Of a stretch of DNA of 64,000 bases, positions 6,302 through 28,134 are shown piece after piece (position 1 is the first letter of the stretch; every line of letters begins with the position of its first letter). The stretch is from Terriglobus tenax. GTDB lineage: Bacteria; Acidobacteriota; Terriglobia; Terriglobales; Acidobacteriaceae. The stretch covers positions 310,001-374,000 of the forward strand of contig NZ_JAGSYA010000003.1 of the NCBI RefSeq assembly GCF_025685395.1. The letters are read 5' to 3'. Made by a program: the position numbers and the translations under genes. The notes below the pieces were generated by a model. The model did not search any database. It was given only the letters and a program-made list of their open reading frames with translations, and was not told where the DNA came from.

Positions 6302-8274
6302 GTCGGACGAATCTCCACTACTGCGACCGAGTAAGGCTCGAGATCAATGGAAAACGTCTTGCTGTATTCCAGGTTACGGCTGGACACGGCAAACCGGTCC
6401 GGATGCTCCAGGGAGGCGACATCCATCAGATCTGCGCCGAGGGTGTGCAGCATTGCCGCCGCGGTCTGCGGAGCTGCTGCACCCTGTAGCCGGACTAAGA
6501 TCGAGTTTCTTTGGCCCTGGTAGTTCACGGCCTTGATCACGATGCGCTTGCCGTCTTTGCTTCGCGTTGCATTGGCGTCCACGGAGCCGGGCTGCCATCC
6601 CTGGGGAATCGCAGTAGAGATCTTGTCCAGCAACAGAGTGCGATCACGGTCGCGGAAGGTTCCCGTTGCGGAAGCCAGCAACTCTTCAGCGTAGTGCTCT
6701 CGAAACAATTTGGACACAGGATAGCTTCCCCCAGGGAACCATGAGACATGATCGTGGTAGATGGCTGCCGTCCAGGATGGATCGTCCGTTGTGTTCCTCA
6801 TCAGCAAGGCAGGGCAGGTCATCGTCAAGCCGGGGCTCAGCTCTTCGTACATCATCAGGCTGCCAGCGGCATGCAGTCCGGCGCGCCAGTCGTACGTGTG
6901 TTGCAGGCTCCACTCCAACACTGCAACTTCGATCTTCGGATGTTTCGACGCGCGAACATAGTCGCACAGTTTGGCAAGGTAGTCGTGTATACGCCGGACA
7001 CCCAATTCAAAGTTTGCTGGTTCATATTCGTAGTTATGGCAACCCAGTACGTCGAAATTGGCGCCTGCAAGATCAATCACGGTCTGGCTCCACTCCATAT
7101 CGTTAGAGCGCTTCTGCCCGCACGCGACGATCTTTATACCCGGAGAAGCAGCCCGCAGCCTTGGTCCATAGGCATTCACAACCTCTGCATAGGACTGCGC
7201 CGTAAAGCCATTGTTCATCGGCTCGTTGTCGATCTGGAAATAGCGGACGTTATACGGTTCGGGATGTCCATTCGCTGCGCGCCGCTGTCCCCACTCCGTC
7301 ATTGGCGGATCGTTTACATAACGAATCCAGTCCAGCGCATACTCAATCGCTTCAGGTGATGTATCCGGGGCCGCCAAAGTGATCAGAGGCTCCGCGTTCA
7401 ATTTCTTGCATAGGTTGAGAAATTCATCGGTACCGAACCCGAAGTAGTCAGAGTACCCACCCCAATAGGTGTTGGGATGATACCCGCGCGACTCATAGGG
7501 GCCGATGCCTTCCTTCCACCGGTAAGTGGAAGCAAAGGATCCGCCGGGCCAGCGGATAAATGTGGGGCGCAGACCTTCGAGTGCTTCAAACAGATCAGGA
7601 CGGAACATCCCATCCCGACGAACATCAGAACGCATCATGGAGACAAAGTCGACCAGCAACGATCCATGTCCTGAAGCCGCTAGCTCAAGAGTGGCCTCGG
7701 TATCTCGTATATTGCTTCGGAAGGTGAACGGGATCCGGTGCCAGTCACCTAAAGGTACAGCTATGAGAACACTGGCTAGAATCTGACCGCTGGATGAGTG
7801 AACTTGGATGGTCAAACGAGGCGTCCCGCGTTCTCGCTTCACCCAAAGAAAGCCGTCGTATGCGACACCGTCCTCAAGAAAAAGACGCCCTTGCTGTATC
7901 TTTGCGTGGCCACCATTCACCTTCAGGCGGAGGCTTTTTGATCCATTCTGAAACTCCAGGTTGGCCACTTCAACCTGTCCACGGTCGAAATCCGGCTTCC
8001 AGTAGGTTTCAAAATCCTTGCCTTCAAATCCAGCGCCGCGAATCTGCTCGGCGAATAGGCCATCCTCGACGGAATGGTTGATGTGCTCTAGGAATTGCCC
8101 ATAGATGTATGGATCGATTGTTTGGCTGGCCCGATCCATATCAACCAACAGGACCGCCACTCTCGGCTCATCGGGACGGCTGTCTTCCAGCATCTCTACC
8201 GCAATCGATGAAACGCGTGTCGAAAATGCGGTGGCGACGGAAGTGCGAAGAAAGTGTCTTCTGTTTATAGCCAT
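6298..8274 (-). CDS. Alpha-L-arabinofuranosidase, GH51-like
   Basis: Retaining glycosidase that removes arabinofuranosyl side chains from arabinoxylan or arabinan. The 658-residue protein starts with a Tat-type signal (NRRHFLRTS), then a carbohydrate-binding-like beta-sandwich (about 90-215), a (beta/alpha)8 barrel and a C-terminal beta domain. The barrel has RWPGGSF near 241, the acid/base site QIDNEP with Glu351, and the nucleophile site AVLEWS with Glu454; the C-terminal domain includes EPYSVAVVEI. No clear operon partner on its strand; it converges on the two esterase genes and likely acts on the same substrates outside the cytoplasm. Confidence 0.92.
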   Translation of the reverse strand: MAINRRHFLRTSVATAFSTRVSSIAVEMLEDSRPDEPRVAVLLVDMDRASQTIDPYIYGQFLEHINHSVEDGLFAEQIRGAGFEGKDFETYWKPDFDRGQVEVANLEFQNGSKSLRLKVNGGHAKIQQGRLFLEDGVAYDGFLWVKRERGTPRLTIQVHSSSGQILASVLIAVPLGDWHRIPFTFRSNIRDTEATLELAASGHGSLLVDFVSMMRSDVRRDGMFRPDLFEALEGLRPTFIRWPGGSFASTYRWKEGIGPYESRGYHPNTYWGGYSDYFGFGTDEFLNLCKKLNAEPLITLAAPDTSPEAIEYALDWIRYVNDPPMTEWGQRRAANGHPEPYNVRYFQIDNEPMNNGFTAQSYAEVVNAYGPRLRAASPGIKIVACGQKRSNDMEWSQTVIDLAGANFDVLGCHNYEYEPANFELGVRRIHDYLAKLCDYVRASKHPKIEVAVLEWSLQHTYDWRAGLHAAGSLMMYEELSPGLTMTCPALLMRNTTDDPSWTAAIYHDHVSWFPGGSYPVSKLFREHYAEELLASATGTFRDRDRTLLLDKISTAIPQGWQPGSVDANATRSKDGKRIVIKAVNYQGQRNSILVRLQGAAAPQTAAAMLHTLGADLMDVASLEHPDRFAVSSRNLEYSKTFSIDLEPYSVAVVEIRPT

Positions 8275-13677: not shown

Positions 13678-15216
13678 CTATCTGTTCCAAATTGAGTGAA
13701 GTTTCCAGAGCCTGCCCTTCACCATCACAGACTTACCGTCGCTTTGAAAGAATTTAATTTTGTTAGTTTGAGACGGAGGATAGATGAGATTGGTCATAGC
13801 AATCGTTCCGTTTTGTGCATAAGCCTCTACGGAAGAGCGATCCACTATCAGCCTTAGATCATAAGGCCGACCTGCGACAAGCGGGGCTGTGGTTCTAGTT
13901 GGGAAATCGGCCATGACCGCTAGGCCTGAGTTCGAGCGATCAACGTAAAATTCCGCATGCTGGGTATCAAAGCCTACCTCAGTCCAATGTTGGTCGTCAG
14001 AATAAATCCGAAGCCCAGAGACCGAGCCTGAATTCACTCCAAACTCCAGTTCCAGTTCATACGGCGTTATCTGCTTATGGATATTATCGATTTCCTTGTT
14101 CGAGCCGAATGCTGCAGAAATAGGGATGCTGGTCGAACGGAGAGCAGTAACGATAGGCTCCTGCTTGAGCGCCAGTCCTGTCTCATCCCGCACGAGCGAA
14201 AGCCGTCGTGGCAGGCTCATCTGACCACGCCACGGAGAAGTTGGCAATTTCGCCGCATACTGCCAGTTACTCATCCAGCCAAGCAGTACTGGATTCTGAT
14301 TCTTGGGAAGATGGTTGAAGCTGATAGCGCAGTAATCGTCCTTCCCGTAGTTCGTCCACCCGTGGGAACCGGGCTCGTTCGATTGAGCAAAGCGTTTGCC
14401 ATCAAAGCTGCCGAGGAAATATTGTTCTCCCGAACCACCTTGAGGAGCGCCTGGATTGAGCCCTACTTTAAGCGCCCAGACGCCGCCATCTTTTCCATTG
14501 CTGTCGGGAACGTGAAGAAGATCAGGACATTCCCAATCGCCAGCAACGTCTCCCGCCGGTCCGAAGTCACTGAGTTGCGTCCATTCCTTCAAGTTTGGTG
14601 AGGAATAAAAACGGACGATGTGTTCCTTCGGTAGGGATACAGCCATGACCCATTGTTGTTGCTTGTCATCCCAGAAAACACTCGGGTCGCGAAAGTCAGC
14701 CAGGTGCAGGTCAAGCACTGGATTCCGGTCATAGGCGATCCAGGTACGGCCATTGTCGTGACTGTAGGCGATATTCTGTGTCTGGCGCGGACCCTGAGGT
14801 GTGTCGCCGGAACCTGTGTAGATGGCGACCATACATTCGCTCTTGGGAGCGCATAGACCGCTTGTATTGTGCAGGTCTATCACGATGCTGCCGGTGAATA
14901 TCATCACGCCATCCTTCTCCGGAATGGCTACGGGAAGTTCCTTCCAGTGCAGCATGTCCTTGCTGATCGCGTGTCCCCAACTCATATGTCCCCACTCATC
15001 GCCGAATGGGTTGTACTGAAAGAAGAGGTGATACTCGCCACGAAAGAACACAAGGCCATTGGGATCGTTCGTCCAGTGTTCGCTGGGCGAAAAGTGGACC
15101 TGCGGTCGATAGGGCTGGTCGTATCCTGATGTTTGCGTCCTACCATTCCGTGCAAAGAAGGCGAGTGCGATCACGAGGACAGATCGTACGAGATTTCCGG
15201 AAAGGGATCGCGTCAT
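13678..15216 (-). CDS. Exported GH32 fructan hydrolase (levanase/fructan beta-fructosidase-like)
   Basis: Hydrolyses beta-fructofuranosyl bonds in levan, inulin or sucrose. The 512-residue product has an N-terminal signal (about 1-27), a five-bladed propeller and a C-terminal beta-sandwich. The three GH32 signatures are intact: WTNDPNG with nucleophile Asp51, FRDPS with the transition-state Asp177, and WECPD with acid/base Glu229. Its start overlaps the stop of the PfkB kinase by four bases, so the two are translated together: export of a fructosidase coupled to phosphorylation of the released fructose. Regulated presumably by the GntR-type gene upstream. Confidence 0.93.
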   Translation of the reverse strand: MTRSLSGNLVRSVLVIALAFFARNGRTQTSGYDQPYRPQVHFSPSEHWTNDPNGLVFFRGEYHLFFQYNPFGDEWGHMSWGHAISKDMLHWKELPVAIPEKDGVMIFTGSIVIDLHNTSGLCAPKSECMVAIYTGSGDTPQGPRQTQNIAYSHDNGRTWIAYDRNPVLDLHLADFRDPSVFWDDKQQQWVMAVSLPKEHIVRFYSSPNLKEWTQLSDFGPAGDVAGDWECPDLLHVPDSNGKDGGVWALKVGLNPGAPQGGSGEQYFLGSFDGKRFAQSNEPGSHGWTNYGKDDYCAISFNHLPKNQNPVLLGWMSNWQYAAKLPTSPWRGQMSLPRRLSLVRDETGLALKQEPIVTALRSTSIPISAAFGSNKEIDNIHKQITPYELELEFGVNSGSVSGLRIYSDDQHWTEVGFDTQHAEFYVDRSNSGLAVMADFPTRTTAPLVAGRPYDLRLIVDRSSVEAYAQNGTIAMTNLIYPPSQTNKIKFFQSDGKSVMVKGRLWKLHSIWNR

Positions 15217-16160
15217 ACATGAGCTCCTTCAATTTTGCCGTTCGCCACGCTGGCTGTTTCGGGTGAGATCGATGCGAGTTGGAGGCATTCGTCTATTGAC
15301 CATTTCGGCGTGGCACCGGGTCGGCTGGCGACGATCGACCCCAGTGCGTTGGCAAATCGTGCTGTACGCAAAAGTGGCCATTTTGCGTGATAGCCATGAA
15401 GGAAGGCGGCGGCAAATGCATCCCCTGCGCCCACCGTGTCTTCGACTGAAGTAGGAAACCCCGGAACGGTTAGTGCGGTTTCGTTTTCATACACAAGACA
15501 ACCTGCCGCTCCAAGCGTGACGCAAATGCTTTCGATTTTGTAGCGAGAAGCCCAGTCGGCGCAGAAGTTCTCCAATGAAAACGAATTTGGATCCACCCCG
15601 GTAAGCGTCGCGAGTGTCTGCGCCTCAGATTCATTGAGCTTCACGATCGAAGCCAATCGGCAAAGCCGTTCCACCAAGGGCAGGTTCCAACTTCCGGGTC
15701 GAAGATTCAGATCGTAAAAACAACGTGTGCCATGCAAGGATTCCACGAGGCTGCGTGTCATCTGTTCCACTTGGGCATCTGTCTGAAACAACGTTCCGAA
15801 ATATAACCAGTCGGGTTCAAGGGTCTTCAGAGACAAAAGTGCTTCTGATGACAGATTGAAGGCGTCGAACGCGGCGGGCCTTGGAATCTCAAATCGGGGT
15901 TCTCCTTCCGGGCTCGTTGTCACTCGCGCCACGCCAGTCGGCTGGCCAGTAACCGTTTGAAGAAATCTTGTATCCACGCCGAGGGTCCCGGCGCCTTCCC
16001 TGGCGCGTCGGCCCCGATCGTCGTCACCAACAGCACTGATCAATGCGACCCAGTTCCCCAGCCGGGCAGCATTCGCTGAAAAATTCAGAGGAGCGCCTCC
16101 AAGAAGCTCCCTGTCCGGGAAAACATCCCACAATATCTCGCCGATACTGAGTATCCGCAT
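15213..16160 (-). CDS. PfkB-family sugar kinase, probable fructokinase
   Basis: 315-residue cytoplasmic ribokinase-fold kinase that would phosphorylate fructose with ATP. GEILWD and GGAPLNFSANAARLG (about 21-35) match the sugar-binding N-terminus of fructokinases, and DTVGAGDAF has the catalytic base Asp247 and anion hole. ATG at 16160 follows GGAG. First gene of a two-gene minus-strand operon with the GH32 enzyme (ATGA overlap), and divergent from the GntR/LacI-type regulator. Fructose as substrate is inferred from the GH32 linkage and the motif pattern. Confidence 0.88.
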   Translation of the reverse strand: MRILSIGEILWDVFPDRELLGGAPLNFSANAARLGNWVALISAVGDDDRGRRAREGAGTLGVDTRFLQTVTGQPTGVARVTTSPEGEPRFEIPRPAAFDAFNLSSEALLSLKTLEPDWLYFGTLFQTDAQVEQMTRSLVESLHGTRCFYDLNLRPGSWNLPLVERLCRLASIVKLNESEAQTLATLTGVDPNSFSLENFCADWASRYKIESICVTLGAAGCLVYENETALTVPGFPTSVEDTVGAGDAFAAAFLHGYHAKWPLLRTARFANALGSIVASRPGATPKWSIDECLQLASISPETASVANGKIEGAHV

Positions 16161-16216
16161 TTTCGCTCCGTTTGCACTTATAGAAGTCCCCTAAATGTAT
16201 ATGCAAGTCATGGCTT

Positions 16217-16262
16217 ACTTGTCTAGTATTGATCACACAATGAGGTGGCCTTCTTGACTAAG
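16217..16262. promoter_or_regulatory. Candidate operator elements of the fructan regulator
   Basis: Between the divergent kinase and regulator genes lie ACTTGTCTAGT (16217-16227) and CTTGACTAAG (16253-16262). Both resemble the longer near-palindrome ACTTGACTAGACAGGT (17432-17447) upstream of the TonB receptor gene. Shared motif CTTG-W-CTA-R. This is a proposal from visual comparison only. Confidence 0.4.
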
Positions 16263-16291
16263 CGTACCGACGCCGAGGATGGTAATGCTGT

Positions 16292-17425
16292 ATGACCGAG
16301 CGGATGAGTGATATCAAGACTGAAAAAGCCGAAACCCCAAAACGATCCAAGTACCTTTCGATCGTGGAGAGCCTGAGAAGAGATATCGCATCGGGTCGAT
16401 ACCGTCCCGGAGCCCGGCTGCCGAGCGAGGCGGAATTAGTCCGCAGGTTCAGTGTGAGCCGAATGACAGTCGTCAAGGCCATCCAACAGCTCCAGCAGGA
16501 TGGCCTTCTTGTCCGTCGAGCCGGGTCGGGGACCTATGCTGCCGGTCAAGCCGCGACTGAAGGATTGTCCTTCGGGTTGCTTATTCCTGATCTCGGCCAG
16601 ACAGAGATTTTCGAGCCGATCTGCCGTGGAATGATGCGATCACCCTCGGTGAAGGGCCATTCGCTCGCGTGGGGGCATGCTTTGTCTACGGCCCACAAGG
16701 AAGAAGAAGCAGAACATCTTTGCCGGAGCTTCATCGAACAGGGAGTCGCCGGTATTTTTTTTGCTCCAGTCGAATTCACCAGCCGTGAAGATGTGAATAG
16801 CCGGATCCTACGAGCGTTGGATAAGGCCCACATCCCGGTGATTTTGCTTGATCGGGATGTGGTCCCGTATCCGGAGCGCAGCAGCTACGATCTTGTGGGG
16901 CTGGATAATCGCCGCGCCGGATATATCGTGACCGACCACCTGATTCGGCAGGGAGCCACACGTATAGCGTTTTTCGCCAGGGAGCACTCTGCAGAGACTG
17001 TGGACTCCCGCATTGCAGGATATCGCGAAGCTCTGCACACTCATGACCTATCGCCTGCCCCGGACCTCCTGCTAAGGGGAGAAGCGGGGGATAAGACATT
17101 CGTGGAGATGGCACTTCGCAAAAGCAAGGCAGACGCGGTCATGTGTGCCAACGATCACACTGCGGCCAATCTCATGCAAACCATCCTTTCGCTTGGCCTC
17201 AGAATCCCGGAGGACATACGAATTGCAGGAGTTGATGATGTGAAGTACGCCAGTTTGCTGCCCATTCCACTAACTACGTTCCACCAGCCCTGTGCGGACA
17301 TAGGAGCAGCAGGTATGTCGGCGATGCTGGAACGCATCAGCAACCCTCATTTGCCTCCCCGATCGATACGGCTGAATGGGCACCTCGTTGTCCGACGCTC
17401 ATGCGGCAGGAAAGAAAATCCATGA
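16292..17425 (+). CDS. GntR-type HTH regulator with LacI-like sugar-binding domain
   Basis: 377 residues. An N-terminal winged helix of GntR type (LPSEAELVRRFSVSRMTVVKAIQQL, about 50-75, given here as two adjoining parts) is joined to a periplasmic-binding-protein-like domain (SFGLLIPDLG onward, DAVMCANDHTAANLMQ, GVDDVKYASLLPIPLTTFHQP), the AraR-type arrangement. It would bind a sugar and control both the divergent kinase-GH32 pair and the downstream TonB receptor-GH32-GH172 genes. The ATG at 16292 lacks a good ribosome site; an in-frame ATG at 16304 is possible. Effector (fructose, fructose phosphate or an oligosaccharide) unknown. Confidence 0.88.
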   Translation: MTERMSDIKTEKAETPKRSKYLSIVESLRRDIASGRYRPGARLPSEAELVRRFSVSRMTVVKAIQQLQQDGLLVRRAGSGTYAAGQAATEGLSFGLLIPDLGQTEIFEPICRGMMRSPSVKGHSLAWGHALSTAHKEEEAEHLCRSFIEQGVAGIFFAPVEFTSREDVNSRILRALDKAHIPVILLDRDVVPYPERSSYDLVGLDNRRAGYIVTDHLIRQGATRIAFFAREHSAETVDSRIAGYREALHTHDLSPAPDLLLRGEAGDKTFVEMALRKSKADAVMCANDHTAANLMQTILSLGLRIPEDIRIAGVDDVKYASLLPIPLTTFHQPCADIGAAGMSAMLERISNPHLPPRSIRLNGHLVVRRSCGRKENP

Positions 17426-17431
17426 CCCGAA

Positions 17432-17447
17432 ACTTGACTAGACAGGT
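17432..17447 (+). promoter_or_regulatory. Candidate operator upstream of the TonB receptor
   Basis: ACTTGACTAGACAGGT is a 16-bp near-palindrome centred on CTAG (12 of 16 positions symmetric). It lies just after the regulator stop and about 90 bases before the receptor start, and related half-sites occur at 16217 and 16253. Confidence 0.45.
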
Positions 17448-17533
17448 TTAAGTGTTTTCTATAGTCAGAATGATTGACAACTGTATAGGTAGCAGCCTAA
17501 AACTTCCTTTCGTCGCAGTGTGTGGAGGCTTGT

Positions 17534-20500
17534 ATGGCTGTCATGTATCAAGGGAAAAGAAGTTCCCTCCGTTTTCTCTCCTGGATCGTATTCACAATCG
17601 TGCTCGGGATGGGAGTTCGCTCAGCTCACGCTCAGTTCAACAGTTCAATCGATGGGTCAGTAAAAGACTCTACGGGGGCGGTCGTTCCCGGTGCAGATGT
17701 GGCGTTGAAGGACACCCGGACCGGGGTAGAGCAACACTTCAGAACGAATGATCAGGGATATTACAACTTCGCGTCGTTAGCACCGAGCACCTACGTCGTA
17801 ACAATTACGAAGGAAGGATTCAAGATCACCAGCTCGGCGCCGTTCGTTCTGGAGCCGATGCGAGTCCAAACCGTTCCCATCACGATGGAAATTGGGGGAT
17901 CAACCGAAACGATCACTGTCGAAGGCGCGGCGCCTTTGGTTCAACTCGCTGATCCAACGATATCGAACACTATTGACCAGCGGAGTGTTCAGGAACTTCC
18001 GTTACAAGGACGAAACGTACTGCAAGCTGCTGCCATGACGCCGGGGGTGCAGGGGCAGGGGCTTACTGGTACCAATGCTGACATCTTCAATATCGACACC
18101 TTCGTCGGCATGACGGCCAATGGCGCGCCGAACTCCGGAAATGTCTACTTCATTGACGGGACCTCAAATCTCGATAACGTTTCTGGCGGCGGTGCACGCC
18201 TGGTTCCTAACCCGGATTCGGTCGGCGAGATGAGCGTCTCAGTGAACAATTACTCCGCGCAGTATGGCCGCGGCAATGGTGTTGTGACGGAGATCAACAC
18301 TCGTTCCGGTGAGAATAAGTTTCATGGATCGCTATTCGAGTACCACTCAGATAACGCGATGACCGCCAGGACACATTTTCAAAATACTCCGGATCCCACG
18401 GGAAGGTTGTTGCCGGTATTCCGTCGCAATGAATTTGGCGGTTCGATCGGTGGTCCGATCTGGAAGAACCATACCTTCTTCTTTTTCACCATCGACAAGC
18501 TTCTCTCAACCAATGCCAACGCAAACCTTGTCAACGTCGAGACTCCGGCTTTCCTGCAGTACATGAAGCAGAATCGGCCGAACAGCCTTGCGACCCAAAT
18601 TCTGACAGCCTACCCGAGCACTGTAGGACCCGTCATCGCAGGAACACAGCAGCCTGTGAGCAATTTCGTTCCGGGTTGTGCGGGAACAACGACTTCGGGC
18701 TTGCCCTGCAATCTTCAAATCGTCGGAGAGGCGATCAACTCGTATACCCTCGCTCACAATGGTCAGCAGTTGAGCATCCGCATCGATCAGGATTTCGCTA
18801 AGGATCGTTTTTATGGCAGCTTCTATCGAAGCCCCTATACCCAGGGAGAGAACAACACGCGCTCGGCTTTCGGTAGAGTGATTCCTGAAGCGATCGACTA
18901 CGGAAACTTTAACTACACCCATACTTTCTCGCCTAGTATGCTGAACGAGTTCGCCGTCGGTGGTACGAGGTCTTACTTCAAGGTGCCGTGCCCTCAATGC
19001 CAGGTTCCCATCATTGGCGTCACGAGCCTGGCAGGATTCGGAGCCGGATTTGCGCCGGTCGTGGGCGTGGGCAACGATTTTGTCGTTCGGGATTCCGTTA
19101 TCATGAACCGCGGAACCCACAATATCCGCGCAGGGATAGAGTTCTATCGAGATCAAGACAATAGTACCCTGACAGACATCGGGATTAGACCCTCGATTAA
19201 CTTCCTGAACCCTGTCCGTTTCGCCGACAGCAGCCCACACGATGAGGGCTACACCGTTAATCCTCAGACCGGCGGGATTGGCAACAACAACCGCTACTAC
19301 CGTTCGGCGACGTTCGGCGTTTACGCTCAGGATCAGTGGAAGATCAGACCGAATTTTTCCTTGAGCTACGGACTGCGCTGGGATTTCAACACGAACCCAA
19401 CAGAAGCGCATAATCAGCTTGCAGTGCTTCGCTTCAATAGTGGAAGTAATCTTCAGCAGCAAATAACCAGCGGATACGTTACTCCCTCGTCGCGTGTTTA
19501 TTCAGACAATCGGATCGCGTACTTCGCTCCTCGTCTTGCCTTTGCATGGGATCTGTTCGGCGATGGGAAGACTTCCGTTCGAGGTGGCTTCGGTATCTTC
19601 TTCAACCGCAGCGGCAACTTCATCTGGAGTGATGTAAATCGCAGCAATCCACCGTTGCTTGCCAACATCAACGCAAATGTAGATAACTCTAGCGGCCCGC
19701 AGCCCGTCTTCGCTCTTTGTGCGAGCGCGACCTATCCGTACAACTGTTCAACACCATCGGTCACGCCAGGGCTCAATCCTCGTGGCGGTCCCGCAAATGC
19801 CCTGGCTGGGATTGGCGGTACGGATCAAAGCCTGAAACAGGCATATTCAGAGAACTGGTTCCTCGGAATACAACGTAGCATCGCAGGTGGAATCGTGCTT
19901 GAGGTGGACTACTCGGGTGCGAATGGGCGCCATTTGTATTCGATTTTTGACCGGAATCGTTTTGCCGGCGACAAGCAGTTGCACGGGGGCACCCTGACCC
20001 GGTTGAATCCATACTTCGCATCAATCAACTACGCGGATAACAGCAACGTCTCCTCCTTCAATGGGTTGGCCGTTGCTGTAAAGAAGAACTTCAGTCATGG
20101 GTTGAATCTCTCTGCGTCTTACGACTTCAGCAAGACGATCGACTTGATGAGTGCGGCGCCCGGCGCGAACAAGGGGGCAGAGAATGCCGCTGTCTTTGAC
20201 GCATGGAACCTTGCTGCTCAACGTGGCCGTTCTTCACAAGATCTTCCGCAAAAATTTGCGTTCAACACCGTTTGGGAGATTCCAGTGACGGGCAGTTCGC
20301 ATCTTATGCGCAGTGTTCTAGGCGGATGGCAGATCTCCGGCCTAGGTATCCTTCAGTCCGGGCTGCCATCGACGATCTACTCCAGCGCCCAGGACTACAA
20401 CGGCGATGGCTACTTCTATGACAGTCCCAATGCTTCTGGCAAAGTCAAGACGGGGTTGAGTCGTAGTGACTATCTGAATGGCTCTGCCTTTTCAGGTATT

Positions 20501-20782
20501 ACGTTCTCGGCACCCACGGCAGGAACGAACGGGAATGCTGGACGAAATACGGCCAGAGGCCCCGGCTTCGCCCAAGTAGATGGAAGCCTCGCCAAATCCT
20601 TCTCCACGCCGTTCCTATTCGGTGAAAGCGGGCGCTGGCAGATTCGAGGCGACTTCTTCAATCTGTTCAACCGCGTCAATCTGAGTAACTTCGACACCAA
20701 TATAGATAGTGGGACCTTCGGCAGAGCAACTGGAGCTTTCCAAGCTCGTACCATCCAGGTCGCAGCGAAGCTCAATTTCTGA
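17534..20782 (+). CDS. TonB-dependent receptor of the fructan locus (Oar-like)
   Basis: 1082 residues, outer-membrane importer. ATG at 17534 has GGAGG five bases upstream; the in-frame GTG at 17522 sits in that ribosome site and is rejected. Signal peptide to about residue 34 (RSAHAQ), CarboxypepD_reg-like domain (about 38-120, GSVKDSTGAVVPGADV), plug region with ELPLQGRNVLQ and a long beta-barrel ending in the aromatic C-terminus KLNF. FHGSLFEYHSDNAMTA and GGSIGGPIWKNHTFFFF are family hallmarks. First gene of the plus-strand fructan genes, so a fructan or fructo-oligosaccharide substrate is inferred. No SusD homologue accompanies it, unlike Bacteroidetes systems. Confidence 0.93.
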   Translation: MAVMYQGKRSSLRFLSWIVFTIVLGMGVRSAHAQFNSSIDGSVKDSTGAVVPGADVALKDTRTGVEQHFRTNDQGYYNFASLAPSTYVVTITKEGFKITSSAPFVLEPMRVQTVPITMEIGGSTETITVEGAAPLVQLADPTISNTIDQRSVQELPLQGRNVLQAAAMTPGVQGQGLTGTNADIFNIDTFVGMTANGAPNSGNVYFIDGTSNLDNVSGGGARLVPNPDSVGEMSVSVNNYSAQYGRGNGVVTEINTRSGENKFHGSLFEYHSDNAMTARTHFQNTPDPTGRLLPVFRRNEFGGSIGGPIWKNHTFFFFTIDKLLSTNANANLVNVETPAFLQYMKQNRPNSLATQILTAYPSTVGPVIAGTQQPVSNFVPGCAGTTTSGLPCNLQIVGEAINSYTLAHNGQQLSIRIDQDFAKDRFYGSFYRSPYTQGENNTRSAFGRVIPEAIDYGNFNYTHTFSPSMLNEFAVGGTRSYFKVPCPQCQVPIIGVTSLAGFGAGFAPVVGVGNDFVVRDSVIMNRGTHNIRAGIEFYRDQDNSTLTDIGIRPSINFLNPVRFADSSPHDEGYTVNPQTGGIGNNNRYYRSATFGVYAQDQWKIRPNFSLSYGLRWDFNTNPTEAHNQLAVLRFNSGSNLQQQITSGYVTPSSRVYSDNRIAYFAPRLAFAWDLFGDGKTSVRGGFGIFFNRSGNFIWSDVNRSNPPLLANINANVDNSSGPQPVFALCASATYPYNCSTPSVTPGLNPRGGPANALAGIGGTDQSLKQAYSENWFLGIQRSIAGGIVLEVDYSGANGRHLYSIFDRNRFAGDKQLHGGTLTRLNPYFASINYADNSNVSSFNGLAVAVKKNFSHGLNLSASYDFSKTIDLMSAAPGANKGAENAAVFDAWNLAAQRGRSSQDLPQKFAFNTVWEIPVTGSSHLMRSVLGGWQISGLGILQSGLPSTIYSSAQDYNGDGYFYDSPNASGKVKTGLSRSDYLNGSAFSGITFSAPTAGTNGNAGRNTARGPGFAQVDGSLAKSFSTPFLFGESGRWQIRGDFFNLFNRVNLSNFDTNIDSGTFGRATGAFQARTIQVAAKLNF

Positions 20783-20798
20783 TCTGCCACATCTCCTC

Positions 20799-20830
20799 GC
20801 CGGGTCGTTGAATCCTTCCAACGACCCGGC
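20799..20830 (+). terminator. Strong hairpin between receptor and MFS porter
   Basis: A perfect 12-bp stem, GCCGGGTCGTTG with CAACGACCCGGC, around an 8-base loop, followed by an A/T-rich tail containing ATTTCTTATTTT. It begins 17 bases after the receptor stop. It may be a terminator or a partial terminator that sets receptor mRNA above that of the downstream genes. Confidence 0.6.
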
Positions 20831-20907
20831 ATATCCATTTCTTATTTTGAACATCTTGCACCTGGTATCGGAGCAACCACGGCATAGACCGGGAGGATCG
20901 TCCCACG

Positions 20908-22236
20908 ATGAAGTTGAATTTCTATATTCTGAAGAGCTCTCTCGTTGGAGCTCTTGGTGGTCTGCTCTTTGGTTTTGACACAGCGGTAATCGCAGGCACG
21001 ACCCAAGCACTTACTCAGACTTTTCATCTCACGCCTGCGCAGCTTGGTCTCACTGTTTCGATCGCGCTATGGGGGACAGTCCTCGGTGCAATGACATCCG
21101 GCGTTCTTGGGGATCGAATTGGATCTCGTAAGGCACTGCGAATTATGGCAGCTCTCTATGTCGTCTCTGCACTTGGTTGCGGCTTGGCTTGGAGCTGGCC
21201 CTCGCTCTTACTCTTCCGATTCATAGGTGGCATTGGGGTAGGCGGATCATCCGTCCTCGGGCCGGTATACATCGCGGAGTTGGCTCCTGCGAAGCTGCGT
21301 GGAAGGCTCGTCGGGATGTTCCAGTTCAACGTAGTCTTGGGAATTCTTCTCGCATATTTCTCTAATTACATTATCTCCGGGCTTCACCTTGGCGTAGCGG
21401 AATGGCGATGGGAGTTTGCTGTAGCGGCTGTTCCCGCACTGCTGTTCGGAATCTTCCTCTTTACTGTTCCCAGCAGCTCACGGTGGTTGGTAACGCAGAA
21501 TCGAGTCGACGAAGCACGTCAGGTGCTCCAAATGCTCGGCTCTCCCTCTGCTGAAGAAGAGCTGAACGAGATTGTCGCTTCTATACATTCCGATCGCCAG
21601 GCAAAGCACGAATCGGTGTTCCAACGACGCTACCTTTTGCCCCTGCTTCTCGCCATCACGCTCGGCGCCTTCAATCAACTCTCCGGCATCAATGCCATCC
21701 TCTATTACCTCAACGATATCTTCGCCGCAGCGGGATTCAGTCAGGTCTCCAGCAATGTACAGGCAGTCATCATCGGCCTTATGAATCTGCTCGCTACGAG
21801 TCTCGCCATGTCTGTCATTGATAAGGTTGGCCGTAAGACGTTGTTGTTGATCGGATCCGTTGGCACTGCCGCAGCTTTGGGTGGTGTGGCATACAAGTTC
21901 CATACGGGGCAGGCGTCATCATCTTTGCTTTGGCTTCTCATCGCCTTCATCTTTTTCTTTGCGATCTCCCAGGGATCAGTTGTTTGGGTATACATCAGCG
22001 AGATCTTCCCCAATCGCGTTCGCTCCAAAGGACAAGGCGTAGGGTCATCTTCTCACTGGATTATGAATGCAGTCATCGCCGCGCTGTTCCCGATGATTGC
22101 TGCACATTCGAAGGCGGCGCCGTTCGCCTTCTTTGCAGCCATGATGGCAATCCAGTTCGTACTCGTTCTCCTCTTCTTCCCGGAGACGAAAGGAAAGTCG
22201 CTCGAACAGATCCAGGCAAAGCTGGGTATCAGCTGA
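20908..22236 (+). CDS. MFS sugar porter (sugar:H+ symporter family)
   Basis: 442-residue inner-membrane transporter with 12 predicted helices. Sugar-porter motifs are plain: GFDTAVIAG in helix 1, GDRIGSRKALR in loop 2-3, PVYIAELAPAKLRGR after helix 4-5, NQLSGINAILYY in helix 7, DKVGRKTLLL in loop 8-9, and PETKGKSLEQI at the end. It sits between the TonB receptor and the exported GH32 enzymes and probably brings fructose or short fructo-oligosaccharides from periplasm to cytoplasm. GGGAGGA lies about ten bases before the ATG. Confidence 0.92.
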   Translation: MKLNFYILKSSLVGALGGLLFGFDTAVIAGTTQALTQTFHLTPAQLGLTVSIALWGTVLGAMTSGVLGDRIGSRKALRIMAALYVVSALGCGLAWSWPSLLLFRFIGGIGVGGSSVLGPVYIAELAPAKLRGRLVGMFQFNVVLGILLAYFSNYIISGLHLGVAEWRWEFAVAAVPALLFGIFLFTVPSSSRWLVTQNRVDEARQVLQMLGSPSAEEELNEIVASIHSDRQAKHESVFQRRYLLPLLLAITLGAFNQLSGINAILYYLNDIFAAAGFSQVSSNVQAVIIGLMNLLATSLAMSVIDKVGRKTLLLIGSVGTAAALGGVAYKFHTGQASSSLLWLLIAFIFFFAISQGSVVWVYISEIFPNRVRSKGQGVGSSSHWIMNAVIAALFPMIAAHSKAAPFAFFAAMMAIQFVLVLLFFPETKGKSLEQIQAKLGIS

Positions 22237-22295
22237 ACTGCAACTTACCAACTCAGCCCGAGGGCAGAGCTGTTGAATCGAAACATGGGGGATGC

Positions 22296-24452
22296 ATGCA
22301 GTCGTCAATCTTTAATGTCACTCGAAGAAGCTTCGTGATCGCTTCGTGCGGGCTCTTGATTCCTCGTCTTGGTTGGGCCGCGATTACTTCTCAGCCGGTT
22401 CTGTACTGGCCCTTGAATGATCCGAAAGCCGCTGGCCGTGAGAGCACAACGGGATCTCAGGCGACTATTGTGGATGGAACGGGACGGTTGGAATGGATAA
22501 AGAATGGGGACACCGAGATTCCACGGCTCGATGGATATTCGGTCTGGGTAGAACATCGACTCGATGCTCCAGTAAGGCTTCGGCGGGAAGTCACAGTCAG
22601 CGCTTGGATGGCTCTTGAGTCGTTCCCTGTAAACACAGCTTCGATCATCGAATGGAACAAGGAATCTTCGATCGTTCGTCTTGCCATTGACCGGTTGGGC
22701 TTCCTCCTGTTTTCGATTGAAGTCGAGGGTCAAAAGTTTGAATGCCGAACTGAACATTCGATTTCACTCGGAAACTGGCATCACGCAGCAGCGACTCTCG
22801 CGCATGACGGCACAATCACGCTATTCCTCGACGGCAAGAAAGTCTCCCGATCTCCGGGAAGAACACCTATCGCTACTCTGGGAGATATTTCGACCGTTTT
22901 TCTAGGACGAGCGGTCGCAGGAGAGATCGTCGCAAAGGTCTTCCCGACGAGTGTATTGAATGGTCTGCTACGTGAGGTACGCGTGTACGATACAGCCATT
23001 GCGGATCGGGATATCAATGCGCTGAGCCAGGAATTTCAGCCGTCCATAGCCTCACTTTCGCCGGACGGCTCGTGGTTTTCCAATGATCCACAGCGGCCGC
23101 AATACCATGCGATGCCTCCACGAGCGTGGACGAATGAGCCCCATGGCCTAGTTCATTTTCGAGGCCAATATCATCTCTTCTATCAGAAGAATGCAAACGG
23201 CCCGTACTGGGGACACATCCACTGGGGACATATGACCAGTCCCGACCTCCTGCAGTGGACCGAACAGCCAATGGCCTTGATCCCCTCGCCCGGACCGGAC
23301 TCGGAAGGCTGCTGGTCGGGCAGCGCGTTGGTTGATAACGGAAAGATCGTACTTATCTACACCGGAGGCGATGGTAAACGAGCCAGCATCTGCATGGCAT
23401 CAAGCGAGGACGGGGTCCACTTCACAAAGTACGCTGGCAATCCAATCATCGAGGCGCCACCCTCTGGCGTCAATGCGAAGGAATTTCGCGATCCGTTCAT
23501 CTGGAAAGAGGGGGCGGAGTATCGCATGATTATCGGCTCCGGTATTACGGATGTCGGCGGAACTGCCCTGCTCTATCGTTCACAAAACCTGACGTCGTGG
23601 ACCTATCTCAAACCTCTCCTTATTGGCGACAAAGCGAACTCGGGTGTCTTCTGGGAGATGCCGGTGTTCGTCAAGATCGGCGATCGCCACGTCCTCATTG
23701 TGTGTGAAGTTCCGGGGCGTGCGTCCTATTGGGTAGGAACATGGGAGCATGACGAGTTTCACGTGCTCTCGAAAGAACCCCAAAGGCTCGATCTCTTCAA
23801 TCACTTCCTTAGCCCAACGCCGTACATCGACGAAAAGGGGAGAGCGATCACAATCGGAATCGTTCCGGATAGCCGGGCTCCTATAGAAGCATGGCAGGCT
23901 GGGTGGGCTCATCTCTATGGCCTGCCGCGAGAACTGACGCTCAGCCCTGAAGTGCGGCTGCAACAACAGCCGATAGAGGAGTTGGCAAATAGATTCGCGC
24001 TTCTCGCTTCTTCAGAACAGAAGCGGCCACTAGGGCAGAATTGGACACTCCTCGACGGCACAGGTACATGTGTCCACCTCAAGGCTCAAGTCGAACGAGG
24101 TGCTTCGGATTCCATAACAATCGCCTTGCGCCGTTCACCCGACAGGCAGGAAGAGACCCTTCTACGATACGACTGGCGCAGCTCTCAATTGACGCTCGAT
24201 CGAACCAAATCCAGTTTGGATACGCACACAAGGCGAGATCGCCAAGAGGTATCTTATGCACCTCGCGTGTCCGGCAAGCTCGACTTGGAGCTCTTTGTCG
24301 ATCAGTCGGTAATCGAGGTCTTCATCGACAAGCGGAGCTGTTTCGCAACGCGTGCCTATCCTGTTCTGCCGGAAAGTGTGGGCATCACCGCATGCTGCGA
24401 GGGAGGGGAGGCCTACCTCACCAGTTTGCGGGTAAGCGTCCTAAGGGTGTGA
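22296..24452 (+). CDS. Exported LamG-GH32 fructan hydrolase with Glu at the usual nucleophile position
   Basis: 718 residues from ATG at 22296 with GGGGG upstream; the frame also runs open upstream inside the MFS gene, but that part is not protein-like. A Tat-type signal (TRRSFVIAS) is followed by a LamG/concanavalin-like domain (about 80-235, WHHAAATLAHDGTITLFLDG) and a GH32 propeller plus C-terminal sandwich. The first GH32 motif reads WTNEPHG, so the classical nucleophile Asp is Glu281; FRDPF (Asp399) and FWEMP (Glu454) are kept. The LamG domain may bind polysaccharide. The altered nucleophile motif may mark a subgroup with a different linkage preference. Confidence 0.9.
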   Translation: MQSSIFNVTRRSFVIASCGLLIPRLGWAAITSQPVLYWPLNDPKAAGRESTTGSQATIVDGTGRLEWIKNGDTEIPRLDGYSVWVEHRLDAPVRLRREVTVSAWMALESFPVNTASIIEWNKESSIVRLAIDRLGFLLFSIEVEGQKFECRTEHSISLGNWHHAAATLAHDGTITLFLDGKKVSRSPGRTPIATLGDISTVFLGRAVAGEIVAKVFPTSVLNGLLREVRVYDTAIADRDINALSQEFQPSIASLSPDGSWFSNDPQRPQYHAMPPRAWTNEPHGLVHFRGQYHLFYQKNANGPYWGHIHWGHMTSPDLLQWTEQPMALIPSPGPDSEGCWSGSALVDNGKIVLIYTGGDGKRASICMASSEDGVHFTKYAGNPIIEAPPSGVNAKEFRDPFIWKEGAEYRMIIGSGITDVGGTALLYRSQNLTSWTYLKPLLIGDKANSGVFWEMPVFVKIGDRHVLIVCEVPGRASYWVGTWEHDEFHVLSKEPQRLDLFNHFLSPTPYIDEKGRAITIGIVPDSRAPIEAWQAGWAHLYGLPRELTLSPEVRLQQQPIEELANRFALLASSEQKRPLGQNWTLLDGTGTCVHLKAQVERGASDSITIALRRSPDRQEETLLRYDWRSSQLTLDRTKSSLDTHTRRDRQEVSYAPRVSGKLDLELFVDQSVIEVFIDKRSCFATRAYPVLPESVGITACCEGGEAYLTSLRVSVLRV

Positions 24453-24487
24453 CGGAGTCCCGACATCGCCTATCAAAGGACCAAATT

Positions 24488-25627
24488 ATGAAGAAGCTTC
24501 GACAATATTTCAGTATCATGCTTTTCTCTATCTCTGGCATGCATATGAATGCACAGGAATCAGGACCGTTGGCGCATATCGCCGACTTAAGAAACAGCGT
24601 CACATCTCATCGCGCTTCAAGTTTCGACAAGAGTGGAGGCAATGCTGACGCCATTCGAATCAAAGCTGGAGAAACAGCAGCACTCGCTGACATCGCCGGT
24701 GCTGGCTCGATTCGCCACATCTGGATCACCATCAATTCACCAAGTGAGTTTCATCTTCGAGAGCTCGTGCTGCGAATGTATTGGGATGGAGACTCAGAAC
24801 CCAGCGTGGAGGTGCCGATCGGTGACTTCTTCGGCACGGGGTTTGAGTACGAAGCTATCCCCGGAGGACATACTGGACAGCGATATCAATCCTGGCAATC
24901 GATGCCTTTGACGGTGCGTGGACGCGCTCTGAGTTCGTACTTCGAGATGCCCTTCTCCAAAGGAGCACGCATCACGGTGACGAACCAGGGTGTAACTGAC
25001 GTGCCCAGCTTCTATTACCAGATCGATTATCAGAGCTATGCGGACACAAATCCTACCTCAAAACAAGGCCGCTTCCATGCTCAATGGCGGAGCGAGATTA
25101 CTCGTGCCGTTCCGCTTTCGGAGAGCAATGGCGTCAATCTCGACGGCAAGAATAACTATCTGTTTATGCATGCCAAAGGGCAGGGACAGCTTGTGGGAGT
25201 CATCCTTGCCATTCAGGGACTTTCCTCTGGCTGGTGGGGTGAAGGAGACGATATGTTCTTCATCGATGGAGCCACGTCTCCATCAACGATCAACGGTACT
25301 GGTATAGAAGACGCCTTTGGAAGTGCGTGGCAGTTTGCCGACGAATTCAACTATCCCTTCGTGGGATATTCGTCCAAAGGCAATCGGGACTGGAGTGGCG
25401 CGCATGTGATGTACCGTTTCTTTCTTGAAGATCCCATCTATTTCTCGAAGTCGATCATCGCAGGCATCGAACACGGGCACGCTAACGATCGGCGCGACCT
25501 CTATACGAGCGTTACCTTCTGGTACCAGAAAGGCCACCAGACGTTAGACCCGCTTCCACCGCTGAAAGAGCGGTTGCCCCGCCCCTTCTATCGCCAGGAG
25601 ATGCTGGATCGTGATCTTCCGAACTAA
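24488..25627 (+). CDS. GH172 (DUF2961) family enzyme, possible difructose-anhydride or furanosidase hydrolase
   Basis: 379 residues from ATG at 24488 with AAAGGA upstream; a longer open frame reaching back to 24041 overlaps the GH32 gene and is rejected. Sec signal to about residue 22. DUF2961 features include HIWITI, LRMYWDGDSEPSVEVPIGDFF, WWGEGDDMFFIDG with Glu252, GTGIEDAFGSAW with Glu274, and YRFFLEDPI. DUF2961 was reclassified as GH172 after one member was shown to act on difructose dianhydride I; other members act on arabinofuranosides. The position between two GH32 genes favours a fructofuranose substrate. The 22-residue spacing of the two Glu motifs is as expected for catalytic residues, which is inference. 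Confidence 0.85.
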   Translation: MKKLRQYFSIMLFSISGMHMNAQESGPLAHIADLRNSVTSHRASSFDKSGGNADAIRIKAGETAALADIAGAGSIRHIWITINSPSEFHLRELVLRMYWDGDSEPSVEVPIGDFFGTGFEYEAIPGGHTGQRYQSWQSMPLTVRGRALSSYFEMPFSKGARITVTNQGVTDVPSFYYQIDYQSYADTNPTSKQGRFHAQWRSEITRAVPLSESNGVNLDGKNNYLFMHAKGQGQLVGVILAIQGLSSGWWGEGDDMFFIDGATSPSTINGTGIEDAFGSAWQFADEFNYPFVGYSSKGNRDWSGAHVMYRFFLEDPIYFSKSIIAGIEHGHANDRRDLYTSVTFWYQKGHQTLDPLPPLKERLPRPFYRQEMLDRDLPN

Positions 25628-25665
25628 GACCCAGAATTCAGAAACACATTTGGGAAAGGAACCAT

Positions 25666-27225
25666 ATGGACCGACGTGCTTTCTTAGTTTCATCTACGAT
25701 GAGTTCCTTACATTTAGCAACTCATCGAGGATTGAGTCAGACGTTTAAGGCAGCGTTAGCTACACCTGACGAAGAACTCAGAATGAGACTCGCTCATGAT
25801 CCCTTGCGCCCGCAGTATCATCTTTTGCCGCAAGCTGGGTCCCTCGGCGATCCCTGCGCCCCGCGCTTTTATCGCGGCCAGCACCACGCCTTTTTCCATG
25901 GAAATTTTGGCGGTCGCGGATGGCATCACGCCATCAGTTCAGACCTCGTTCACTGGCGACATCTGCCGATTGCACTCTCCCCTACGGAGAACTCCTATGA
26001 CTCATATGGAACCTTTACCGGAAGTGTTTTGCCGGACGATGACGCCGCAAGCATCATCTATACCGGCGTGACGAAGGTACCGAGGGAGCAAGAGACAATT
26101 CGTAACGAAGGACTCAAGGAGGTTCAATGCGTCGCTACTTCAAATGATCCTGAGTTGCGAACATGGCAGCAACTGGACAAACCAATCATTGAGGCGCCCC
26201 CTACCGGAAAGAAAATTACGGGGTTTCGTGATCCTTTCTCATGGAAAGAAGGCGATATCTGGTATGTGGGGGTTGGCTCAGGATTCGAACATGAAGGAGG
26301 CGCAGTCCTGCTTTATCGCTCAAAAGATGCTCGACACTGGGAGTACCTGCATCCGCTCGCACAGGGAAAGTGGAATGGAAAGATTTTCAGTAATCCTGTC
26401 CCAAGCGGAGAGATGTGGGAATGCCCTGACTTCTTCGCTCTTGGTAAAAAGCATGTCCTGCTCTACTCCACTGAGAACGAGACTCGGTGGGAAGTTGGTA
26501 CATTCGATCGCCAGGAGCTGCGCTTCCATAGCGAATCGAAAGGAAAGCTCGACCATGGCGCCTTCTATGCACCCAAGAGCATGGTGGACGGAGGAGGCAG
26601 GCGCATTTTGTTCGGTTGGATACAGGAAACCCGATCGCAGGAAGAGATTAAAGCTGCGGGATGGGCGGGTGCCATGTCATTGCCACGGGTGCTGACCATC
26701 AGTTCCGGAAATGAACTCCAGATGGAGGTAGCTTCCGAACTCGCGAAACTTCGCGAAGATACCGTTGCAATTACACACGCAAAAAACCTGAATGAACTCA
26801 ATAATCGGTTGGCGAAGGCGATCATCCGCAATCGCTCGGGAGAGGTGTCTTGTTCGTTCAAGGTGGGTGATCGTTCCTGTGGGCTGGAACTGCGAATCGG
26901 GCCGACGAGCGATAGCAAGCCTATGTTGGCTCTGTCTTATGCCTCAAATCATGCGCCGCCGGACTCGATCATGATCGGAGACAAGACTGTTCCTCTTCAT
27001 CCGAATCGAGAAAAGGTATCAAATATTCGTATCTGGATCGATGGATCGATTATGGAAGTATTTATCGACTCCAGCCAGGTATTGACGGTGCGAAACTACT
27101 TCGATGCAGGACAGTCGCCTGAGATAAGGGCTGTATGCCTGGGGGATGTGGAGGCATTCAGAGGTCTTACTGTGGCTAACATGATGCCCATATCGCAAGA
27201 CCGCCTTACCACTTCAATCGCCTAA
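25666..27225 (+). CDS. Exported GH32 fructan hydrolase (third copy)
   Basis: 519 residues with a short Tat-like N-terminus (MDRRAFLVSS). GH32 signatures are present but degenerate in the first: SLGDPCA keeps the nucleophile Asp62 while lacking the W-x-N-D-P-N-G consensus; FRDPF (Asp189) and MWECPD (Glu252) are canonical. The C-terminal sandwich includes IWIDGSIMEVFIDSSQVLTV, which includes the usual SxxEVFI motif. ATG follows AAAGGA. It lies 38 bases after the GH172 gene and is probably in the same transcript. Sequence divergence from the other two GH32 proteins suggests division of labour, for example endo versus exo or levan versus inulin. Confidence 0.9.
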   Translation: MDRRAFLVSSTMSSLHLATHRGLSQTFKAALATPDEELRMRLAHDPLRPQYHLLPQAGSLGDPCAPRFYRGQHHAFFHGNFGGRGWHHAISSDLVHWRHLPIALSPTENSYDSYGTFTGSVLPDDDAASIIYTGVTKVPREQETIRNEGLKEVQCVATSNDPELRTWQQLDKPIIEAPPTGKKITGFRDPFSWKEGDIWYVGVGSGFEHEGGAVLLYRSKDARHWEYLHPLAQGKWNGKIFSNPVPSGEMWECPDFFALGKKHVLLYSTENETRWEVGTFDRQELRFHSESKGKLDHGAFYAPKSMVDGGGRRILFGWIQETRSQEEIKAAGWAGAMSLPRVLTISSGNELQMEVASELAKLREDTVAITHAKNLNELNNRLAKAIIRNRSGEVSCSFKVGDRSCGLELRIGPTSDSKPMLALSYASNHAPPDSIMIGDKTVPLHPNREKVSNIRIWIDGSIMEVFIDSSQVLTVRNYFDAGQSPEIRAVCLGDVEAFRGLTVANMMPISQDRLTTSIA

Positions 27226-27297: not shown

Positions 27298-28134
27298 ATG
27301 AAGATTGGCATCAGCGCGTTCGCATGGACATCGTGTTTAGAACGCAAACATCTCGATCTGTTGCCGTGGATCAAATCCTTGGGCATAGACGGTGTCGAAG
27401 TTCCAATGTTCGAGCCGGATGCATTGCCGATCAAGAAGATCAGAGATGCGTTTGAAGCCCATGACCTGGAGTGCACTGTCTGCGCCATTCTGCCCAAAAC
27501 AGTCAATCCCATCAGTCCCCACCAGGAGCAAAGACGACGGGCCATTGAACATCTGATTCGATGCGTTGAAGCCTCGGCAGCGATGGGCAGCAAAGTATTA
27601 GGTGGTCCACTTTTCGCTCCTATCGGATATTTGCCTGAACATCGCCCAACGAAGGACGAATGGTCGTGGGCTGTTGAAGCGTTCCAGTCCCTTGAAAGCA
27701 CTCTTGATAAGACTGATATGACTCTCTCGATCGAACCGGTGAACCGCTCAGAAACCTTCTTTCTGCGGACCGCCGCCGACACGAAACAGTTGTGCGAGTC
27801 GATCGGAAATCCTCGAATTGGAGTTACTATCGATACCTTTCATGCCAACATCGAAGAACAAAGTATCCCGAAAGCGATTTTATCTTTGGGATCTCATCTT
27901 AAACATGTCCACGCCAGCGAAAACGATCGAGGGCCTTTGGGATATGGGCACGTGCCCTTTGGGGATATCGTCCTCTCCCTCAAAGAGATTGGATATGACG
28001 GATATCTGATGATTGAGGGCTTTGGCTACAGTCCCAAAGAAAAGAGTGCTCCTGGCAAACTGTGGGCATATACCGACGTTTCACCAGAAGACCTCACGAA
28101 AGGCGGAGTGCGATTCCTTAAAGCATTGATGTAG
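27298..28134 (+). CDS. Ketose 3-epimerase-like protein (D-psicose/D-tagatose 3-epimerase family)
   Basis: 278-residue TIM barrel of the AP_endonuc_2 (xylose isomerase-like) superfamily; cytoplasmic. Against the Agrobacterium D-psicose 3-epimerase, as I recall its sequence, the metal ligands fall at a constant offset: Glu146 (LSIEPVNR), Asp179 (TIDTFH), His205 (KHVHASEN) and Glu240 (MIEGF), and the substrate contacts Glu152, His182 and Arg211 are also present. It would therefore interconvert fructose and psicose, or tagatose and sorbose. ATG follows GGAG at eight bases. Last gene of the fructan cluster; no signal peptide, so it acts after uptake. Confidence 0.82.
   Translation: MKIGISAFAWTSCLERKHLDLLPWIKSLGIDGVEVPMFEPDALPIKKIRDAFEAHDLECTVCAILPKTVNPISPHQEQRRRAIEHLIRCVEASAAMGSKVLGGPLFAPIGYLPEHRPTKDEWSWAVEAFQSLESTLDKTDMTLSIEPVNRSETFFLRTAADTKQLCESIGNPRIGVTIDTFHANIEEQSIPKAILSLGSHLKHVHASENDRGPLGYGHVPFGDIVLSLKEIGYDGYLMIEGFGYSPKEKSAPGKLWAYTDVSPEDLTKGGVRFLKALM

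Follow-up and report, generated by a model that had tools for sequence, protein, structure and literature searches.

What does a glycoside hydrolase of family GH172 do when its gene lies between genes for GH32 enzymes? What is known of GH172 specificities comes from a handful of characterised enzymes, and it is tempting to transfer the difructose-anhydride (DFA) label wherever GH32 is a neighbour. The case considered here comes from a window of 64,000 nucleotides from Terriglobus tenax, in which a + strand gene (24488..25627) encodes a DUF2961 protein of 379 amino acids, hereafter the GH172 protein. A sequence-only reading of the window had placed this gene between GH32 genes, correctly (the gaps are 35 bp from GH32b before it and 38 bp from GH32c after it), and had proposed a difructose-dianhydride hydrolase. 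Our preferred explanation, held with moderate confidence, is that a probably exported, anomer-retaining exo-alpha-D-furanosidase has been recruited into the one fructan operon of this bacterium, that it is not a DFA I synthase/hydrolase of the alphaFFase1 type, and that its substrates are alpha-D-fructofuranosides or alpha-D-arabinofuranosides.

The open reading frame encodes a genuine GH172 enzyme, as judged from its Pfam score, an aligned model and the presence of both catalytic Glu residues. Its sole Pfam match, to PF11175 (DUF2961), scores 249.6 bits (cut-off 27); the NCBIfam models gave no match. The solved sequences that match it all belong to GH172, namely 4kq7 (BACUNI_00161, 1e-75), 8ah3 (DgGH172c, 1.9e-72), 7v1v (alphaFFase1, 1e-52) and 8ic8 (ExoMA1, 7.9e-42). 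An AlphaFold2 model, predicted from an alignment of the GH172 protein with 11 of the 14 loci from a scan of genome contigs, is of middling quality (mean pLDDT 65, falling below 50 in the active-site residues 267-303). It nevertheless superimposed on 4kq7 with Z 30.0 (306 residues, 3.1 A), on 7v1v with Z 30.0 (307 residues, 3.0 A), on 8ah3 with Z 29.4 and on 8ic8 with Z 26.5. The next structural matches were double jelly rolls of virus capsids at Z values of no more than 12.7, a likeness already reported for GH172 (PMC10115798). The model thus predicts the double jelly-roll fold of the family.

Alignment puts Glu252 (in GEGD, 251-254) and Glu274 (in GTGIED, 270-275) in the same columns as E270 and E291 of alphaFFase1, its acid/base and nucleophile respectively (PMC8605356), and so bears out the catalytic pair that had been proposed from the motifs. 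The spacing had been likened to that of the founding enzyme: the two residues are indeed 22 apart, as in ExoMA1, but the figure for alphaFFase1 is 21, as it is for BACUNI_00161 and DgGH172c. Among 100 aligned rows (the four references, the GH172 protein and 95 homologues), an arabinofuranosidase included, every row has Glu270 and 99 have Glu291, so that the pair is a mark of the family, not of a substrate. Also conserved, in alphaFFase1 numbering that includes the pair, are Y187', W267, E270, E291, D292, W298, N31' and D33'; the position of N272 is occupied by Asp. Retaining chemistry, subunit interface and calcium site are carried over from relatives. By this analogy, Glu274 would attack the anomeric carbon in a double displacement with retention of the anomer, and Glu252 would protonate the leaving group and then activate water. 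The active site would form between two subunits, with calcium bound close to Asn52', Asp54' and Asp254.

A GH32 neighbour and a catalytic pair are insufficient for the DFA label, published work tying the activity to Glu85 and Gly299. In alphaFFase1 the +1 subsite consists of E85 and K147, mutants of which show >90% activity on pNP-alpha-D-Araf and <5% on inulobiose, with no more than 3% of inulobiose activity left in the E85 mutants (PMC8605356). Gly299 makes room for the C1 hydroxymethyl of fructose (PMC10509167). Several alignments agree that the 31-residue insertion of alphaFFase1 bearing Glu85 (64-94) is without counterpart in the GH172 protein. The place of Gly299 is taken by Gln282 and that of Tyr293, beside the nucleophile, by Ala276, each residue being unique at its position among the 100 rows. 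Position 293 is Tyr in 97 rows. Position 299 varies (Asp in 41 rows, Gly in 21, Asn in 18 and Tyr in 13), and close relatives of the GH172 protein have Met, Gly, Ala or Asn there, Gly in two of them. Going by these sequences, Gly299 is not specific to the alphaFFase1 type, and this variability makes Gln282 a weaker argument than the absent insertion. The place of Lys147 is alignment-dependent, a gap in one alignment and Arg in another.

For comparison, four plasmid proteins resembling alphaFFase1 (54-58% identity with it, taken from 12 such records listed with at least 54%) served as positive controls: all four have the insertion, a Glu at the matching place and Gly299, and three have Lys147, the fourth having Arg. 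As a separate observation, DUF2961/GH172 queries matched 42 Klebsiella plasmid records. The GH172 protein is 38% identical to alphaFFase1 over 308 aligned residues and falls outside the selection that PMC8605356 applied for the DFA I type, namely identity >47.45% with a conserved pocket. The same paper denied the label to BACUNI_00161 on account of an apparent clash of Cys304 at the Gly299 place and a non-conserved +1 subsite, a measure that denies it equally to the GH172 protein. In a tree of 51 rows, eight of them loci from the genome-contig scan, the alphaFFase1 clade of five (100/100) leaves the GH172 protein outside. It groups instead with five relatives at 98/96, G018 being nearest (99/89), and a sixth relative, G701, has a place without support. 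It is likewise outside the ExoMA1 clade, with Gln and not Asn at position 299.

Family, catalytic pair, absent Glu85 insertion, pocket changes and gene order all come from alignment, and on these points the proposed difructose-dianhydride hydrolase is unsupported: its catalytic pair is family-wide, and neither the insertion, nor Gly299, nor the clade is found. We consider it unlikely that the enzyme hydrolyses or synthesises DFA I or another difructose dianhydride through a pocket unlike that of alphaFFase1. Such an activity would suit the fructan operon, where the genome's GH32N matches all lie, and alphaFFase1-like genes do accompany GH32 in Rhizobium phaseoli, Rhizobium sp. T136 and Arthrobacter. 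One alignment sets an Arg against Lys147. Gln282 argues against unhindered entry of a fructofuranosyl ring, an effect that Ala276 might offset. Against these points stand the pocket and the tree, the near-complete loss of inulobiose activity in the E85 mutants and, for one of the anhydrides, the report that alphaFFase1 does not act on DFA III (PMC8605356). The enzyme may take an alpha-fructofuranoside of another kind. Should it prove active on alpha-fructosides despite Gln282, the family's structural rule for fructose versus arabinose would be incomplete.

A larger share of our confidence, though still a minority of it, goes to an exo-alpha-D-arabinofuranosidase whose place in the fructan operon is fortuitous or serves a mixed glycan. 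In ExoMA1, Asn at position 299 is held responsible for arabinofuranoside specificity and weaker alpha-fructosidase activity (PMC10509167), so a larger residue at the Gly299 place points the same way, and enzymes of several clades (DgGH172a, b, c, NocGH172 and MycGH172) release D-arabinose (PMC10115798). The context, moreover, had been called entirely fructofuranosyl. For the glycosidases encoded in 13678-27225 this stands, but at 6298-8274, about 16 kb from the GH172 gene, the window also encodes a protein that has alpha-L-arabinofuranosidase domains and is GH51-like in its PDB matches. The packing of the GH172 gene into a fructan operon tells against an arabinofuranosidase. So does the rest of the genome, since L-fucose isomerase is usable on D-arabinose and the N-terminal domain of that enzyme is below cut-off there (23.1 of 28 bits). 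A search of the genome for GH183/DUF4185 gave no match, as it did in every control genome. As a side observation, in the region 6944-14433 of L189, from Chimaeribacter arupi, an alphaFFase1-like gene is near L-fucose isomerase and a sugar kinase, not GH32, as if for D-arabinose use.

The surroundings of other DUF2961 genes bear on how far the operon can be trusted as a guide. A conserved GH172-GH32 linkage was expected, and was ruled out: no GH32 gene occurs in the neighbourhoods of 40 DUF2961 loci of the phylum, a chosen part of those listed, viewed over up to about 9 kb per side where contigs allowed. These include the six nearest relatives, three of them cut on one side (at 123 bp, 845 bp and 3.2 kb). 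The same holds for the 14 loci of the genome-contig scan, many of which have short flanks. The test is able to detect GH32, since it found such a gene beside three of the four alphaFFase1-like genes. Within this sample the GH172-GH32 pairing is private to the T. tenax genome, and the context consequently tells less about substrate than it appears to. The nearest relatives are outside GH32 loci, as an arabinofuranosidase would allow, one being beside GH38 and GH27 and one having a protein with an arabinofuranosidase-like domain 8.5 kb away. Among the neighbours scanned, G358 has histidine kinases and PhoU, G450 a PilZ protein together with one resembling SMP-30/gluconolactonase, G018 sigma and anti-sigma factors, G305 a protein that matches no Pfam model, and G337 GH38, GH27 and more DUF2961 genes. 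In G701 there is a LacI regulator with a weak match to an arabinofuranosidase domain (25.4 bits, cut-off 22.2).

Two further arrangements were seen among DUF2961 loci. At the G337 locus (L080), four DUF2961 genes of different clades lie within 16 kb, beside GH38 and GH27. In a clade common in the family, an MFS sugar porter is directly 5' of the DUF2961 gene at four (L086, L089, L090, L091) of the 14 loci L082-L095.

Relatives at 54-65% identity to the GH172 protein are rare. Five of 397 other genomes of the taxonomic family have one, a phylum sample of 396 adds one more, and none was found in 18 other genomes of the genus; DUF2961 as such is common in the class (157/299 genomes). The genome-contig scan with the GH172 protein returned 14 loci at 32-44% identity, none titled as Acidobacteria, although two titles name no group. 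We found no paper that mentions DUF2961 together with Acidobacteria, or GH172 together with Acidobacteriota.

The locus itself reads, on the + strand, as a GntR-type regulator with a sugar-binding domain (16292..17425; Pfam), a large outer-membrane beta-barrel protein with a carboxypeptidase-regulatory-like domain (17522..20782; Pfam), an MFS sugar porter (20908..22236; Pfam, NCBIfam), GH32b with LamG and GH32 domains (22296..24452; Pfam, motif alignment), the GH172 gene, GH32c (25666..27225; Pfam, motif alignment) and a ketose 3-epimerase-like TIM barrel (27298..28134; Pfam, with the NCBIfam D-psicose 3-epimerase below cut-off). On the opposite strand (13678-16160) are GH32a (13678..15216; Pfam, motifs) and a PfkB sugar kinase (15213..16160; Pfam). 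The kinase is, at a guess, a fructokinase; none of the NCBIfam kinase models reached cut-off. All three GH32N matches of the whole genome, and its single DUF2961 match, fall in this locus. Between 20700 and 28400, promoter and terminator signals did not rise above chance. Beyond the gene order, we infer export, co-transcription and substrate. The N-terminus of the GH172 protein is, by eye, hydrophobic and signal-peptide-like, and the protein is probably exported. The operon argues for a fructose-containing substrate, and the most likely role would be removal of an alpha-D-furanosyl end group, fructofuranosyl or arabinofuranosyl, that blocks the operon's GH32 enzymes. The epimerase might convert released fructose to a different ketose, or work in the opposite direction.

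The fructan locus probably predates the arrival of GH172 in it. A kindred locus in another genus (G203, L176) runs regulator, outer-membrane protein, GH32c-type, MFS porter and GH32b-type, and its contig ends 182 bp past GH32b, so that it is silent on what comes next. Its GH32c-type protein is 43% identical to that of the window, which has better matches elsewhere (58 and 53%), and the two GH32c genes therefore need not be the same gene. Full-length GH32b-type genes were found in two of 200 genomes of the taxonomic family (T. tenax itself and G203) and in two of 80 genomes of G203's genus. In a related genome, G501 (L187), the epimerase comes directly after a GH32b-type gene, which goes against GH172 as an ancestral part of the locus. 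GH172 and GH32c look as if they had been inserted after GH32b and before the epimerase, the empty place being known from one genome. A ketose 3-epimerase-like gene was seen at three GH32 loci (27298-28134 in the window, 2483-3256 in L187 and 17644-18519 in L183).

The GH32 enzymes flanking the GH172 gene depart from their own family pattern. GH32a is canonical, with NDPNG, RDP and ECP motifs; the Asp of NDPNG is the GH32 nucleophile. In GH32b, which has a twin-arginine-like N-terminus by eye and was analysed from 22293, one codon 5' of its ATG, NEPHG replaces NDPNG (Glu281 for Asp) and EMP replaces ECP, as in both full-length GH32b relatives found. In GH32c, Ser-Leu-Gly (59-61) replaces Trp-Met-Asn before Asp62, with RDP and ECP retained. 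This substitution is unique among 38 aligned rows of 45, after removal of GH32a, rows of the GH32b type and copies of the window's own. A brief literature search found no paper on a natural GH32 with altered NDPNG. Judged from the motifs, the changes may be a shared adaptation or decay.

Decay of the GH172 gene was assessed through conserved columns, counted over 48 of the 96 non-reference rows (the GH172 protein and rows of at least 230 bits). The GH172 protein keeps 76 of 83; its seven departures, one of which adjoins the nucleophile, are the joint highest number, with one relative, against a median of 1. Gln282 and Ala276 could mean altered or lost activity. Along with the loss of the WMN motif in the adjoining GH32c, these counts would suit a drifting passenger, weakly active or inactive, in which the changes at the Tyr293 and Gly299 places have lowered activity. 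We nonetheless find such a passenger improbable. The reading frame is intact, an AAAGGA ribosome site ends 7 bp 5' of the ATG, and the catalytic pair and calcium-site residues are kept; the branch is not long (0.45, against 0.40 for the sister), so the overall rate, as estimated from the tree, gives no sign of decay. Beyond the DFA and arabinofuranoside readings, the rest of the weight falls on another alpha-fructoside or weak activity.

A bolder account, to which we give a low probability, takes the three adjacent non-standard -1 pockets (Glu in GH32b, Ser-Leu-Gly in GH32c, Ala276/Gln282 in GH172) together. The operon would have been rebuilt for a fructan-like furanoside outside the range of ordinary inulinases. 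In an older locus, the GH172-GH32c pair would have been inserted between the GH32b and epimerase genes, and the trio would now cut a mixed alpha/beta furanoside, for instance a substituted fructan or an unusual difructose anhydride.

The exo-alpha-D-furanosidase that we prefer may finally be set beside the known GH172 systems. BACUNI_00161 and DgGH172c, at 42% and 40% identity, are its nearest solved structures in sequence and rank among the best matches in fold. Like the GH172 protein they are without the Glu85 insertion and have a larger residue at the Gly299 place, but this is Cys in contrast to Gln, and Phe/Leu follows GTGxED where the GH172 protein has Ala. With alphaFFase1, the DFA I synthase/hydrolase of Bifidobacterium dentium, it shares the fold, the catalytic pair, the -1 subsite residues and a GH32 neighbour, but not the Glu85 insertion, Gly299 or Tyr293. 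Furthermore, alphaFFase1 is intracellular and served by an ABC importer (PMC8605356), whereas the GH172 protein has a signal-like N-terminus and an MFS porter. With the exo-alpha-D-arabinofuranosidase ExoMA1 it has in common the fold, a pair 22 residues apart and a residue other than Gly at 299. There, however, ExoMA1 has Asn rather than Gln; it falls in a distant clade and belongs to a D-arabinan locus (PMC10509167), whereas the GH172 protein is found in a fructan operon.
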